Assembly: GCA_030549815.1 (NCBI GenBank)
Contig: JAUQQQ010000001.1
Location: forward strand, 80,524-144,523
Source: a bacterium
Lineage (GTDB): Bacteria > DRYD01
Direction of reading: 5' to 3'
Length of the DNA stretch: 64,000 bases
The notes under the pieces are model-generated. The model was not told the DNA's origin and made no database searches. It saw nothing but the letters and a program-made list of their open reading frames with translations. This document shows, piece by piece, positions 13,451-20,048 of this stretch. Made by a program: the position numbers and the translations under genes. Each line of letters starts with the position of its first letter. Position 1 is the stretch's first letter.

Positions 13451-13741
13451 TAAAATAAATAAGCAAATAGAATCATTTATTTTACAACAAGTAAATAAAA
13501 ATAAATTAGATGTAAAGAATCTAAAAGGGGCGCCTGTATTATTACAAAAACATTAGAAAAATACTTAATGTTAATGTTATTGATAAACGTGGGAATACTT
13601 CGTTTCTATTTCTAAATATCATCTTCTTCTATTACCTTCTTTATCGTCAAAATCAAACACATATCGTCTACACTATATCTTCCATATTCGGTATTTAATT
13701 TTCTTACTTGGCTTTTAAATTTATTTCATTTAACTGATTTA
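13451..13741. other. Intergenic stretch with no confident gene
   Basis: This is AT-rich non-coding sequence between the EF-G paralogue and the nuclease-gene island. On the minus strand a short open stretch ends near position 13615 and reads roughly KLNTEYGRYSVDDMCLIL followed by TIKKVIEEDDI and a stop. It has an in-frame TGA about 37 codons upstream and no start codon, so it may be the tail of a decayed gene. No convincing terminator for the EF-G gene was found. Confidence 0.4.
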
Positions 13742-13866
13742 ATCTCCACTTCTACAGAAGAAGTTCACACTCTACAAAAACTACTTTTTTTACAAAAAAC
13801 TATTTTTTCTACAAACGGGACCCCTTACCCCACAAAACTACTTATTGCCATTGGTAATTTATTCAT
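13742..13866 (-). pseudogene. Remnant start of a third AAA/nuclease gene
   Basis: On the minus strand from 13866 the reading is MNKLPMAISSFVG then stop, which matches the first residues of the neighbouring intact gene (MKRLPIGISSFEK). Right after the SSF codons a GC-rich element (GTGGGGTAAGGGGTCCC) breaks the frame. Beyond it come about 60 bases of AT-rich near-repeats of roughly 19-20 bp, each with TACAAAAA and ACTA on the plus strand. Only about 11 codons of the gene survive. This shows a third family member once started here. Confidence 0.65.
13817..13831 (-). repeat. GC-rich short insertion element, copy 1
   Basis: On the plus strand this reads GGGACCCCTTACCCC, with one more T than the two other same-orientation copies (GGGACCCCTACCCC). 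It is flanked by ACAAAC on one side and ACAAAACTACTTAT on the other, the same flanks seen around copies 4 and 5. It is nearly all G and C inside AT-rich sequence. Confidence 0.75.
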
Positions 13867-13905
13867 CCATAGACTTCTTTTTTACTATTCCAACTTACAA
13901 TCCTT

Positions 13906-15420
13906 TCATAATTTCTCCCACCGATAATTCATTTTTCTTTTTTTCATATCAAAATTCATCCCACATATTATTACTTCACCTTCCAACGCATACTTCCCAT
14001 AATATTCCCTATCCCTTATTTGTTCTATCGCTTTTTCCTCATCCTTCCCTACCTTTACTTCAAATATGTATATCTTCCTGTTTGGTGTTCTTACCATTAT
14101 ATCAATTCTTCCTAATTTAGTATGCAATTCTGCATTACATTCAAAACCCGTTGAATATAAATACACATACAAAAACGACTTTATACTCTTTTCATCACTC
14201 CCATATAAATCATATGGTATATTCTCCAACAATCTGTTTATCATGTATTCTATCTCTTCTAAATCAACATTTTCCAATGCTTTCCTTATTGGATTTATCT
14301 CACTATCTTCTCCTCTCCACTCTCTTACAAATTCTCTTAACACATTCTCATTAAAACTTATCTGTACTTCCTTATTTGGATATCTCAATTTATAAAAATT
14401 CCTATCATACTCTTCTTTTACTTTGTCTATTGTTAAGTATCCCGTTTGGAACATTAATGCTTCTATACTTATTTTCTCTACATCCACTCTATTCAAATCT
14501 TCTTCTGACATCATTAACTCCACATTTGGCATCTCATATTTTTTCTCTCTTATCAGTTTTATCAATACCTCTGGATTACCTGTCTCATACCAATAACTGC
14601 TTTTTTTTCTCTCCTGAAAATACAATAACACATCGAATGGATTGTATATTTTACTTCCCAACCACCAATACCCATTATACCACTCTCTTATTTCTAACAA
14701 CTCTTTTTCACTTTCTATTATTTCCCCAAACACTTCCTCCAATTCCCTTTCTGTATACCCACATATATCTCCATATTCTTTACTCAAGCTTATATCTCTT
14801 AATTGATTTAGTCCACTAAAGAGTGATACTTTTGCAAATTTACTTATCCCTGTTATAAATACAAAACGTAAATACTGGTCTAAACCCTTTATCGTCTGAT
14901 AAAATCCTTTCAACACTTCTCTTATTTCTTCCGCTATTCCACTCTTCTCTATATTATCCAATATCGGCTTATCATATTCATCTATTAACAACACTACTTT
15001 TTTTCCTGTCTTTTTGTTTATCTTATAAATTAATTCTGACAGCATTGAATAATATAGCTCTTCCTCTATTTCTACTTCATAATTCTTACTCCAAAATTTT
15101 ATTATCGATTTAATATACCTCTTCATTTCTTCTTTGTTTTCTACCTTCCCTCCATCAAATGAAAACCTTACCACTGGATACTTTTCTCCCCAATTCCACT
15201 TCTTTTCCAAATACAATCCTTCAAATAATTCTTTTTTCCCTTCGAATGCACATCGCAATGTATCTACAAACAAGCTTTTCCCGAACCTTCGAGGACGTGA
15301 TAAAAAATAATATTCTCCTCCTTCTACTAATTTTTTTACAAAACTCGTCTTATCTACATAATAATATCCCCCTGTCCTTATCTTTTCAAAACTACTTATT
15401 CCTATTGGCAATCTCTTCAT
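13906..15420 (-). CDS. AAA-ATPase with PD-(D/E)XK nuclease domain (intact copy)
   Basis: A 504-residue protein of the AAA-ATPase-like/PDDEXK_9 family (DUF1703-related). The N-terminal domain contains GGYYYVDKTSFVKKL, an atypical Walker A (SRPRRFGKSLFVDTL), Walker B (VVLLIDEYDKPI) and FITGISKFAKVSLFSGLNQL. The C-terminal nuclease domain contains GRIDIMVRTPNRKIYIFEVKV with the Asp and Glu-x-Lys catalytic residues. These proteins form large paralogous families in some bacteria; a defence or DNA-transaction role is suspected but not established. The ATG at 15420 is chosen over a GTG three codons upstream. Positions 14751-15306 appear identical to the broken copy upstream. Confidence 0.85.
   Translation of the reverse strand: MKRLPIGISSFEKIRTGGYYYVDKTSFVKKLVEGGEYYFLSRPRRFGKSLFVDTLRCAFEGKKELFEGLYLEKKWNWGEKYPVVRFSFDGGKVENKEEMKRYIKSIIKFWSKNYEVEIEEELYYSMLSELIYKINKKTGKKVVLLIDEYDKPILDNIEKSGIAEEIREVLKGFYQTIKGLDQYLRFVFITGISKFAKVSLFSGLNQLRDISLSKEYGDICGYTERELEEVFGEIIESEKELLEIREWYNGYWWLGSKIYNPFDVLLYFQERKKSSYWYETGNPEVLIKLIREKKYEMPNVELMMSEEDLNRVDVEKISIEALMFQTGYLTIDKVKEEYDRNFYKLRYPNKEVQISFNENVLREFVREWRGEDSEINPIRKALENVDLEEIEYMINRLLENIPYDLYGSDEKSIKSFLYVYLYSTGFECNAELHTKLGRIDIMVRTPNRKIYIFEVKVGKDEEKAIEQIRDREYYGKYALEGEVIICGMNFDMKKRKMNYRWEKL
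14751..15306 (-). repeat. 556-bp tract shared with 16293-16848
   Basis: Comparing the two copies by eye, I found no difference over 556 bases (constant offset 1542). Identity stops abruptly on both sides: the bases just outside diverge strongly although both copies still encode homologous protein. The tract covers the Walker A, Walker B and downstream ATPase region. An identical block inside diverged paralogues is the usual mark of recent gene conversion or unequal recombination. Confidence 0.85.
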
Positions 15421-16093
15421 CCTACACACCCCTTCTCTTACCTATATCTCTCTACTTCCATCTTTTTCACTCTCCTTCCCCTACTATCTATAACTATTCC
15501 CACTAAATATATCTCTTCTCTATCCTTATACTTCTCATGATATCTCTTCTCTTTTATTTGTTCTATTGCTTCCTCCCTATCCACCTTCATCTCTATTATA
15601 TACACCTTACCCCTATTTATCACCGTTAAATCTATTCTCCCTATACTTGTCACATCTTCCACTATTACTTCTAATCCACTTGACACCAACAACACATAAA
15701 ACAATGCACAATAAAAACTCTCATATCTACCCACATCTCTATACCACATATTTGGCACACTTCCATATTTAATACATTTTCCAATTCTAACAATTTACCA
15801 TCAACAAATATCTTCCTTACTTCTCTTACCCCCAACTTTTTCCTGACCAAATACTACTTCCTATATAACTATTTAATGCTACTTTTACCTCTTTGTTCGG
15901 ATAGCACAATCTATACTCTAACCAATCTTCTTCTATCATCTCTTTTATTGTCAAATATCCTGTTTGAAATAATAACGCTTCTATCCTTATTTCTTCTATA
16001 TCAAACATATCTAATACATTATCATCTACTACTACTTCTTCTAAATTCGGTATATAGTACCCCTTCTCCCTCATAACTTTTACTAAAAATTCT

Positions 16094-16113
16094 GGGGTGG
16101 GGTCCCCTTCCCC
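16094..16113 (+). repeat. GC-rich short insertion element, copy 2 (in-frame)
   Basis: Plus strand GGGGTGGGGTCCCCTTCCCC inside the broken nuclease gene. Compared with the intact paralogue it adds 21 bp, seven codons (GEGDPTP, between WFKTGNP and EFLVKV), without changing frame. CTGG occurs on both sides, as a 4-bp target duplication would give. Confidence 0.75.
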
Positions 16114-16292
16114 TGGATTACCCGTTTTAAACCAATACGACCTATATACTCTATTTTCCATATACAACAACACATCAAATGGATTATATATCCTTGAACC
16201 TAACCAATAATACCCATTGTACCACTCCCTTATTTTCTCTAATTCTTCCTTCCCTTCTATTAACTCTCCAAATACCTTTAATAATTCTTCCT

Positions 16293-16848
16293 CTGTATAC
16301 CCACATATATCTCCATATTCTTTACTCAAGCTTATATCTCTTAATTGATTTAGTCCACTAAAGAGTGATACTTTTGCAAATTTACTTATCCCTGTTATAA
16401 ATACAAAACGTAAATACTGGTCTAAACCCTTTATCGTCTGATAAAATCCTTTCAACACTTCTCTTATTTCTTCCGCTATTCCACTCTTCTCTATATTATC
16501 CAATATCGGCTTATCATATTCATCTATTAACAACACTACTTTTTTTCCTGTCTTTTTGTTTATCTTATAAATTAATTCTGACAGCATTGAATAATATAGC
16601 TCTTCCTCTATTTCTACTTCATAATTCTTACTCCAAAATTTTATTATCGATTTAATATACCTCTTCATTTCTTCTTTGTTTTCTACCTTCCCTCCATCAA
16701 ATGAAAACCTTACCACTGGATACTTTTCTCCCCAATTCCACTTCTTTTCCAAATACAATCCTTCAAATAATTCTTTTTTCCCTTCGAATGCACATCGCAA
16801 TGTATCTACAAACAAGCTTTTCCCGAACCTTCGAGGACGTGATAAAAA
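16293..16848 (-). repeat. 556-bp tract shared with 14751-15306
   Basis: Second member of the apparently identical pair, inside the broken nuclease gene. See the partner tract for the comparison. The GC-rich insertions lie outside this block on both sides, so they were not copied into the intact gene. Confidence 0.85.
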
Positions 16849-16894
16849 GTAATACTTACCTTCTTCCTCCAACTTTTTTACAAAATGTGTCTTT

Positions 16895-16908
16895 GGGGTA
16901 GGGGTCCC
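16895..16908 (+). repeat. GC-rich short insertion element, copy 3 (in-frame)
   Basis: Plus strand core GGGGTAGGGGTCCC, continuing CC. Relative to the intact paralogue the region is 21 bp longer and stays in frame: GGYYYVDKTSFVKK becomes GGYYYVENWGTPTPKTHFVKK. It sits just upstream of the Walker A motif of the broken gene. Confidence 0.75.
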
Positions 16909-16953
16909 CCAATTTTCTACATAATAATATCCTCCTGTTCTTATCTCCATAGA

Positions 16954-16967
16954 GGGACCCCTACCCC
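16954..16967 (-). repeat. GC-rich short insertion element, copy 4
   Basis: Plus strand GGGACCCCTACCCC, the reverse complement of the copy 3 core. The aligned region is about 19 bp longer than in the intact paralogue and shifts the frame near the start of the broken nuclease gene. It is followed by ACAAAACTACTTAT, as is copy 1. Confidence 0.75.
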
Positions 16968-16991
16968 ACAAAACTACTTATCCCTACAAAC

Positions 16992-17005
16992 GGGACCCCT
17001 ACCCC
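16992..17005 (-). repeat. GC-rich short insertion element, copy 5
   Basis: Plus strand GGGACCCCTACCCC again, preceded by CTACAAAC as in copy 1. It lies between codons 5 and 6 of the broken nuclease gene and accounts for about 19 extra bases compared with the intact gene. Confidence 0.75.
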
Positions 17006-17178
17006 ATGGCAATTTCTTCATTCCACACACCTCGTTTTCTATTACTAATATATTAAAACTACTACCAAATATTAGTTCCTTATTTTAGATCCCTTTTTAT
17101 TATTTCTTCAGCCAACAGCGATTACCTATATTTTATTTGAAAGTGCAACAGTTTACTACTGATTCCAAAATAAAAAAT

Positions 17179-17231: not shown

Positions 17232-20048
17232 TTATCTTCTTAAAGTATCATATATCCTATATTCATAGCCTCTATACCTTATAGATGCGCTTTGGAGGAA
17301 ACTAATGTTGAAAAGTGAAGGATCATAGAAGAAATCTACTTTACTCGTGCCCTTTATCCCAACATTACCCTTAGTTACAACCATTCCACTAAACCATAAT
17401 CGATTGTTATTACCCGTTATTGCTTTCAGATTCCCACCAACCATTATTAAACCATTTAATTTAACATCGGTCCCTAATATTTGCTCGTTAGCCTTCCCCC
17501 TCTTTTTCTTTTCTTTTTCCATTTGCTGCTGCCCCTGTTGCTGATCCTGCTGCGTAGTAGATTGATCACTATTTTCTGTAACAAGCCCAGATATAAAATT
17601 TAAAGCAGAAGCAAAATCAGAATCAGTAATACTACTGTTAATACTACTATATGAACTTGAAACATCAACAGCTATAGTACCTTCATCCGTCGAAGCATTT
17701 CCAGTATTAGACAAATTTCCTACATGCAAGTTGACAGAAGGAATATTAATATTAACATACAGAATTTTTACTTTACTTTCGCTATCATCATTAACTTCTT
17801 CCACTTCCAATTTTATTGTATTAACACTATCATAAAATAAAAGAATAAAGTCATTAAGCCCATCTCCATCCTGAATATCTATTTTTGAAAAAGTCATACT
17901 ACCACTATTATTTTTAAGATATTCATAAACAGTGTTAAAAACAGTGTTAAATTCATTTGTGTTTGACCCACTACCTCCACTTGTTCCACCACCACTTGTT
18001 CCTCCACTTGTTCCACCACCACTTGTTCCTCCACTTGTTCCACCGCCACCTGCAAAACCTTCACTAAGTGGGTTAATGTATAGGTTATTATCGGCTAAGA
18101 TAGCGACGTTTTGGTAGCCCTGATAAACTTGGCTAAACCTTGCAATTATATCCCCCTGTTTAACCTGCCCACCTACAGCACTATAATCTTTTGTTTTTAA
18201 AGTTCCACTTTTACTATCATAATTATATGATTGCCAATAATTAGTAACATTATTATCATAATAAACTGGGGCAATATAGTTAGTTACGTTTAAAGAATCG
18301 TTAGAAGAGTCCTTAGTAGCTACTAAAGCTCCTCCACCTTCCTCATCAGTCTTAACTATTCCATCAATAACAATCGCTCCTTTGTCATACCACAAAACCG
18401 AACCATTATCTATCTTAACCCCTACATCAATCTTTCCAAACCTATAATCATCTACACTACCATCACTTCTATATTGAGCTTTCCAGGAAGTAATATGGAT
18501 AAACTTTCCCTGATCATTTTTTTGACCATCTATTTGATCACCTATTTTGGTATCCTTTTTAACAACGAGGTTCCATTTTTCGGCATATATTTCATTTCCC
18601 ACAATGCTTGTATTGTATATTTGGACTCCACCTGGTGTTATCTTTGCTTTGCTTGTGTCTATAGTTCCATCACTTTTAACAACTTGCTTTAGATAGTTAT
18701 CAATTTGAGTATAACTAACATCTGGTGGGAAATATACAACAGTATTTTCATTTACAAAAACATAATATCCTGCATTTAACTGTGCATATGATCCAGGAGT
18801 AAATTTAGAGTTAATTTCGTTAATCAATGCTTTTCGCGAGCTATCAAAACCGGATTCTATTGTTTTATTTACAAACTCTGCACCAATAAAGTCTTTTATT
18901 TGGTTGTATTTATTTTGATCATATTTAATAGCATTAGGATCTGTTCCATCTATCATCGTATAAATTGTCTTACCATATTTGAAACTATTACCACTATTAG
19001 TTTTAGCAATCACTTCTCCTCTAAGCCCGCCATATTCAGCTTGAAAATTTCCATTACTATCTTGCTTAACAGTGTAAAATTTTGTAGTTTTGTGATCAGC
19101 ATTAAGTTTTATATCAAACGTATTAGAATAGAATCTATTATTAACTCTATTACTATCATAGGTTCCGACTTCTAAATTAGAATCGATAATAGTGGATCCT
19201 TCAGAAACCAGGGATCCACCTAGGGAAAACCCTGCATTAGCAAAAGATTGATTAATATAGGTTATAACATATCTTTGTGAAGCTGGAACTTTTGAGTATC
19301 CAAGAGCCATTATCATCAATGTATTCTGCCCAACTTTTCTACTACCATTAACATTAATTTCTTGATCTGCAAATGAGCGGTTGTATGAAGAGTACAAAGG
19401 CAATCTTCCATTCGTAGCAGACAAAGATAGTTGATTATTATCAAAATCTACAAATATTGTGTTAGCTTCATCACCATAATAGGCGTTATTAGAATTGGTT
19501 GAATTACCAAAAAATATAACGCTTCCACGCTCTGTTATAGGTAAATTAGGTTTCCAAAAAACAACAACAGCTCCATTTTTACCTGCAAGATTATTAATTG
19601 AAATATCATTAGGTATTCCGGTTCCTCCTTGAACATTGCCATTAGATTGCCTAATTATCCATCCACTTTGAGTTGTATCTGCTAAATTTATTATAGCAAT
19701 ATTATAAGCCAGGGTGACATTACCAAAGTTGCTAAAGATTTTTCCTATTTTAGTTGAAGGATTATTTAAAGAGGGAAAAGTTATGGTATTTATGCTACTT
19801 GTGCCGCTTCCCGAACCTGTTATAGATTGGCTTGGTGTATTAAGCATAAAAGATTCAGGAGAGTGACTTATAAGAAAAGTAAGGATTTGAATAGCATCTT
19901 CCGCATTATTCATTGCTTCCTGACGAGCAAAGTAATCTTTATTAGTTTTAAAATTATTTTGTGTTAATCCAAATAGAGCGACTGACATCATTATGAGAAC
20001 CACTATAAAGAATAATGTGCTTAGTAATAGGACACCTTTTTTATTCAT
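17232..20048 (-). CDS. Large PilX-like prepilin-related exported protein
   Basis: A 938-residue protein whose N-terminus (MNKKGVLLLSTLFFIVVLIM, then a charged stretch and ARQEAMNNAEDAIQ) matches the PilX N-terminal pattern: Lys-Lys-Gly, a hydrophobic helix, then residues around the AEAG-like motif. PilX-type minor pilins work with type IV pili or type II secretion; no other pilin genes are nearby. The rest is a low-Cys, Ser/Asn/Gly-rich extracellular region with beta character. It contains Gly-Gly-Thr-Ser-Gly repeats around residues 670-690 and a Gln-rich segment (QQDQQQGQQQ) around residue 840. It is about five times the size of usual PilX. GGAGGTGA precedes the ATG at 20048. Confidence 0.75.
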   Translation of the reverse strand: MNKKGVLLLSTLFFIVVLIMMSVALFGLTQNNFKTNKDYFARQEAMNNAEDAIQILTFLISHSPESFMLNTPSQSITGSGSGTSSINTITFPSLNNPSTKIGKIFSNFGNVTLAYNIAIINLADTTQSGWIIRQSNGNVQGGTGIPNDISINNLAGKNGAVVVFWKPNLPITERGSVIFFGNSTNSNNAYYGDEANTIFVDFDNNQLSLSATNGRLPLYSSYNRSFADQEINVNGSRKVGQNTLMIMALGYSKVPASQRYVITYINQSFANAGFSLGGSLVSEGSTIIDSNLEVGTYDSNRVNNRFYSNTFDIKLNADHKTTKFYTVKQDSNGNFQAEYGGLRGEVIAKTNSGNSFKYGKTIYTMIDGTDPNAIKYDQNKYNQIKDFIGAEFVNKTIESGFDSSRKALINEINSKFTPGSYAQLNAGYYVFVNENTVVYFPPDVSYTQIDNYLKQVVKSDGTIDTSKAKITPGGVQIYNTSIVGNEIYAEKWNLVVKKDTKIGDQIDGQKNDQGKFIHITSWKAQYRSDGSVDDYRFGKIDVGVKIDNGSVLWYDKGAIVIDGIVKTDEEGGGALVATKDSSNDSLNVTNYIAPVYYDNNVTNYWQSYNYDSKSGTLKTKDYSAVGGQVKQGDIIARFSQVYQGYQNVAILADNNLYINPLSEGFAGGGGTSGGTSGGGTSGGTSGGGTSGGSGSNTNEFNTVFNTVYEYLKNNSGSMTFSKIDIQDGDGLNDFILLFYDSVNTIKLEVEEVNDDSESKVKILYVNINIPSVNLHVGNLSNTGNASTDEGTIAVDVSSSYSSINSSITDSDFASALNFISGLVTENSDQSTTQQDQQQGQQQMEKEKKKRGKANEQILGTDVKLNGLIMVGGNLKAITGNNNRLWFSGMVVTKGNVGIKGTSKVDFFYDPSLFNISFLQSASIRYRGYEYRIYDTLRR
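17974..18050 (-). repeat. 27-bp tandem repeat inside the PilX-like gene
   Basis: About 2.9 copies of a 27-bp unit (each starting CCTCCACTTGTTCCACC on the plus strand) encode the GGGTSGGTS repeats. The unit is a multiple of three, so gain or loss of copies changes the linker length without breaking the frame. Confidence 0.9.

Follow-up and report, generated by a model that had tools for sequence, protein, structure and literature searches.

Two unrelated types of hairpin micro-element in the DUF1703 nuclease genes of hot-spring Calescibacteriota

In Calescibacteriota, a little-studied phylum of bacteria, the DUF1703 nuclease gene family houses two unrelated types of very small inserted element, one G-rich and ~16-22 bp long, the other 21-36 nt long and bounded by TATAAC arms. 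The explanation that we put forward, and to which we give an even chance, is that these are hairpin micro-elements of a multigene family, which jump rarely to new sites and are copied among paralogues by a homing-like conversion of short tracts. The window, a 64-kb stretch of DNA, belongs to G000, a draft MAG of 1.59 Mb in 23 contigs from a hot-spring bacterium. Two genus mates (G001 and G002) and two species of a sister genus (G004 and G005) were among the genomes compared, all of them draft MAGs in which family copies are often truncated by contig edges. Twelve paralogues of the family are recognisable in G000, and G004 and G005 give ~35 matches each to it; the family takes up ~1-3% of each genome. 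Five intact nuclease paralogues lie in a tandem array at G004:C73:7000-17000.

The window contains the following nuclease gene features.

13906 to 15429, minus strand: W1, the intact paralogue, an ORF of 504-507 aa of the DUF1703 family, free of elements.
15438 to 17021, minus strand: W2, a broken paralogue with four G-rich elements, pieced together from tblastn matches in shifted frames and from alignment with 11 paralogues.
13600 to 13870, minus strand: decayed remnant of a third gene copy, namely a 5' end (MNKLPMAISSFVG*) and fragments, traced through repeat families D7, D11 and D14 and weak tblastn matches.
14750 to 15306, minus strand: recent gene conversion tract of 557 bp, identical to 16292-16848.

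W1 has the two Pfam domains of a DUF1703 gene, AAA-ATPase_like (PF09820, E 3.4e-73) and PDDEXK_9 (PF08011, E 3.4e-15), and its Walker A (RPRRFGKS), Walker B (DEYD) and nuclease (D...ExK) motifs are all readable. W1 and W2 are tandem copies which have clearly diverged except for the 557 identical bases, in which conversion within the family can be seen. Next to the nuclease island, at 17232-20048, lies a large ORF of 938 aa which resembles a surface protein and has a tract of GGTSGG repeats.

An earlier note on this DNA had described five copies of a G/C-only core between 13817 and 17005, in both orientations, and had noticed none elsewhere in the window. This was borne out by a search with GGGGTAGGGGTCCC (up to 3 mismatches), which gave eight overlapping matches at five places in the 64 kb, against a mean of 0.53 and a maximum of 3 in shuffled sequence; the copy at 16894 is on the plus strand and the other four are on the minus strand. 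Whether each copy is an insertion was judged against the intact W1 and 10 further paralogues.

16987 to 17006, minus strand: element A, 20 bp, a net 19-bp frame-breaking insertion at codon 5; the site is also filled in C5c.
16954 to 16968, minus strand: element B, a net 19-bp frame-breaking insertion after ISSF; in the paralogue alignment the site is also occupied in C12, C5a, C5b, C5c and C19.
16894 to 16914, plus strand: element C, 21 bp, in frame, giving VENWGTPTPK for VDK; the site is filled in C5b, C5c and C19.
16092 to 16116, minus strand: element F, a palindromic in-frame insertion of 21 bp (~16096-16116) that gives GEGDPTPE and has direct repeats CTGG/CCAG; in the paralogue alignment the site is occupied in C5b and C19, and in C5c is fused with site E.
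13817 to 13832, minus strand: remnant element, which links the left flank of site B to the right flank of site A.

The alignments thus agree with the earlier note on two in-frame insertions of 21 bp (adding GEGDPTP and a segment with WGTPTP) and on others near 19 bp which break the frame. The fifth copy (13817) sits not in W2 but in the decayed 5' remnant of the third gene copy, and its junction looks as if recombination had passed through the element. The adjoining bases ACAAAC and ACAAAACTACTTAT, which the note had seen shared between copies, turned out to lie outside the element; they are gene sequence beside sites A and B and recur in other paralogues. The CTGG on both sides of one copy is real (16092-16116), but the 4-bp target duplication that it suggested is not general, since direct repeats, called by eye from the alignments, occur at G-rich sites B (5 bp, TTTTG), F (4 bp, CCAG) and G (4 bp, TGAT), and sites A, D, E and H have none. 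With these uneven repeats and lengths of 19-22 bp, the G-rich type does not point to a single insertion chemistry.

In the whole of G000, where the note had proposed looking for it, the motif does recur outside the window; the genome, window included, has 22 matches (up to 2 mismatches) against 2 for a reversed control. All but one fall within the family, in W2, C12, C5a, C5b, C5c, C19 or the window remnant. Similarly, GGGGNCCC gave 53 matches against 8 for the control, 46 of them in the family, some being the G-rich insert at site H in C5a and C15a. The aligned paralogues show G-rich inserts at eight sites (A-H), in 7 of the 12 copies and in both orientations, with net lengths mostly of 21 bp (C, D, E, F, H and most of B) and otherwise of 19-22 bp. 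Full palindromes are found at E (GGGGTGGGGGCCCCTTCCCC) and F (GGGGAGGGGGCCCCTACCCC), and the copies at A, B and C seem to correspond to a single end of a palindrome of this kind. C5c lacks the segment that separates site E from site F, and its join runs exactly through the element, so dispersed copies do recombine. The family genes of G000 have two more small inserts that form hairpins, I of 30 nt and J of 14 nt. A 30-nt double hairpin in C5a reads GAATGACGAAGTCATTC TCTCGTAAGAGA, and a 14-nt insert, ATTAGGCGTTCCGCA, interrupts the Walker A codons and is common to four paralogues (the C5 and C19 copies of G000).

The sole motif match outside the nuclease family is in the tail of a lipoprotein-like gene (G000:C6:84841-84911), where three tandem G-rich repeats encode EGSPTPQEEVPTPKEGAPTPE, which resembles the peptide of the in-frame inserts. 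A coding explanation, based on the PTP peptide shared with this tail repeat (C6:84847), was dropped as a general one, since several of the insertions break the frame or run in the opposite direction. The motif search found no copy in three genus mates or two family mates, so that none of the relatives searched carries it at the same sites as ancient sequence, an outcome which the note had considered. No obvious GC-rich or palindromic insert was seen in the family copies of G001 and G002, and viral contigs scanned for the exact patterns of both element types, and for the nuclease protein, gave nothing.

More telling is a different hairpin insert found in DUF1703 genes of the sister genus. In G005 this insert has arms TTTCATATAAC and TCGTTATA with a variable core between them, forming a hairpin of 21-36 nt (TATAAC...GTTATA) unrelated in sequence to the G-rich type. 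In a gapped-pattern search G005 yielded 32 copies and G004 two, every one of them within the DUF1703 family. They occupy seven sites across these two species, numbered here by the codons of an empty copy.

Site 22, G005: 34 nt.
Site 200, G005: 34 nt, inverted.
Site 247, G005: two 34-nt units in tandem, single in C33.
Site 314, G005: 36 nt.
Site 448, G005: 21 nt.
Site 474, G005: 36 nt, inverted, with arms TACAAC/GTTGTA.
Site ~72, G004: 36 nt, differing from the G005 sites.

In all seven of the long elements the fold consists of an outer stem of 6 bp and an inner stem of 4-5 bp, which a small internal loop separates and a short loop closes; the inner hairpin is missing from the 21-nt form. The inner stems vary in sequence, and yet all 31 of their pairs are Watson-Crick. 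When arms were re-paired between elements, a single arrangement out of 144, the true one, gave 31 of 31, and the element at site 474 has a compensatory change in its outer stem. The target, as read from the sequences, is TA-R at seven of seven sites, with TA before the element, TA at its end and then a purine. Two sites seem to coincide between the genera (C with 22, H with 200), which is suggestive but within chance for ~60 site pairs. Among all the inserts, those of 21, 36 and 54 nt are in frame and those of 14, 19, 20, 22 and 34 nt are out of frame.

The flanks bear on how the elements came to fill the same site in several genes. Each TATAAC site has its own version of the element, common to all its carriers, with an insert identity of 0.985-1.0 among paralogues that differ at synonymous sites by 0.48-0.89; a generic element inserting independently would not produce such site-specific versions. 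Likeness among carriers exceeds their likeness to non-carriers mainly inside 12-30 bp of the insert, and past ~30 bp flank identity is mostly down to 0.73-0.85, trends drawn from fragmented draft MAGs with 4-7 carriers to a site, in which family paralogues may be mis-joined. At site 314 raised identity extends further upstream. Simple duplication would bring long identical flanks, and the pattern is best explained by conversion of short tracts in which the occupied allele is favoured; as different paralogues are filled at the same sites, most copies probably arose by spread from paralogue to paralogue rather than by independent insertion. G000 shows a similar but less clean trend, and its carriers seem to be of greater age and further decayed. 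In Cardinium, DUF1703 paralogues are reported to recombine frequently (PMC6387759). We infer the homing-like bias from a static pattern, part of which neutral gene conversion and loss could explain.

That unrelated inserts are confined, in both genera, to a family making up 1-3% of the genome suggests that the family itself may be involved, through its nuclease or through its recombination. Alternatively, the inserts could be REP- or MITE-like non-autonomous elements which an ordinary RAYT or IS transposase mobilises and which are enriched here only because family genes are many and dispensable. We consider this unlikely, although a size of 20-36 bp and a hairpin form agree with REPs (PMC3733652), both orientations are present, and the TA duplication seen with TATAAC elements would be in keeping with an IS630/Tc1-type enzyme. 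Of the two transposase families searched, Y1 (PF01797, the RAYT family) was absent from G004 and G005 and gave two truncated matches in G000, in MAGs that are 87-90% complete, and DDE_3 (PF13358, IS630-type) was absent from all three genomes. Moreover, random tolerance would leave the element-free intergenic DNA unexplained: in each genome at most one insertion site falls outside the family.

The known classes of small mobile hairpin can be set against the same facts. REPs and REPINs with RAYT are 20-40 bp hairpins, some inside ORFs (PMC3733652, PMC3116915, PMC8266576), and in this resemble our elements; however, no unpaired GTAG or CGTC tag stands at the hairpin foot in the element sequences examined, and REPs are mainly extragenic and dispersed whereas the elements described here keep to one gene family. 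Bacterial MITEs are 50-500 bp long and dispersed, with a parent IS (PMC10969869). The TATAAC type shares with them inverted-repeat arms and a target duplication (TA, as in MITEs of the IS630/Tc1 type, is duplicated by the TATAAC type only), but 16-36 bp and a single family set both types apart. Rickettsia palindromic elements, to which the earlier note had likened the insertions, are ~150 bp long and enter many unrelated genes (PMC10969869). The likeness holds for palindromic insertion within coding genes, often in frame in Rickettsia; it fails for distribution, as our elements of 16-36 bp are found in one family and often break the frame. The note's suggestion of an undescribed class of micro-insertion stands in so far as the elements are recurrent, occur at many sites and fit no described class tested, with the qualification that most copies seem to stem from spread among paralogues.

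The closest parallel lies in an organelle. In yeast mitochondria, occupied GC-cluster alleles of var1 are preferentially converted. GC clusters such as GC42 measure ~30-42 bp, have an AG target and are mostly intergenic (PMC4478555). They share with our elements a short GC-rich hairpin, an AT-rich genome, a 2-bp target and conservation of the stem, and they are recombination hot spots with gene conversion (PMC4478555), a process that we deduce here from flanks. Unlike them, the Calescibacteriota elements are bacterial, sit in one protein-coding family, are 16-36 bp long and have a TA-R target or none that is clear.

It is distinctly unlikely that the inserts are products of ordinary decay, that is, one-time pseudogene indels, immobile and copied by gene duplication. 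Most carriers in G000 are pseudogenes with several unrelated stops and frameshifts, and several have common flanking sequence, showing that duplication did occur. Duplication of a single indel, however, cannot give one gene copies of a sequence at several sites and pointing both ways, nor does decay explain inserts that are more similar than their flanks and a conserved covarying structure. Intact genes are carriers too, as C15a of G000 and C122 of G004 are open with in-frame inserts.

The inserts might instead be removed from the RNA or skipped by the ribosome, as micro-introns or bypassed segments, with the interrupted genes still working, which we regard as very doubtful. In mitochondrial byps and in T4 gene 60 bypass, a short hairpin-containing insert breaks an otherwise conserved ORF. 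These systems, which are named in PMC8211752 and PMC4592705, are alike in having the hairpin within an ORF, but takeoff and landing codons match here at one site only; TAT...TAT flanks are found at site 247 and nowhere else. Deletion of the exact 34-nt units opens frames of 526 (C6) and 533 aa (C45) in G005, and an insert in C4a that gains 1 nt is followed just downstream by a 1-nt loss. Carrier pairs have dN/dS of 0.15-0.4 at dS of 0.48-0.89, pairwise estimates which pre-date the inserts at least in part; this, with open codons between inserts (same dN/dS, dS 0.5-0.9), would agree with working genes. On the other hand, near-identical inserts point to recent arrival, so that the open frames may simply be undecayed; the reference frame of carriers C4c and C5a contains a stop, and the unrelated stops and frameshifts of the G000 carriers tell against function. 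That the inserts are artefacts of assembling or sequencing a repetitive family is hardly credible, for even though several G005 copies stop at contig edges, as expected of paralogues that are hard to assemble, the inserts lie on many contigs with differing flanks, in three separate MAGs and as two different sequences, and those of the window are mid-contig.

If the elements do spread by homing-like conversion, a rare event would carry one from site to site within the DUF1703 family, and short-tract conversion would then copy it to the same site of other paralogues, with the occupied allele winning. A copy receiving a frame-breaking element would lose function and decay, as W2 may have done, while one with an in-frame element could persist, as in C15a and C122; in G000, frame-breaking inserts and decay are found together. 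Speculatively, the breaks that start conversion might come from the family's own PD-(D/E)XK nuclease or be favoured by the hairpins. In a fully self-contained version, which seems quite unlikely, the family nuclease would itself cut empty sites in its own paralogues, into which the micro-element would be copied.

Mobile hairpins so small, bound to one multigene family and passing from copy to copy, are known in mitochondria, and none were found for bacteria. If self-contained homing were true, an element of ~16-36 bp would owe its spread to a protein encoded by the gene family that hosts it; it would be the smallest homing element known to us, evolved twice in one phylum. The elements are a natural record of short-tract gene conversion among paralogues, and those of the sister genus make translational bypass or micro-splicing directly testable. 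They also give a lead on how DUF1703 nucleases, whose role is unknown (PMC6387759), act on DNA.
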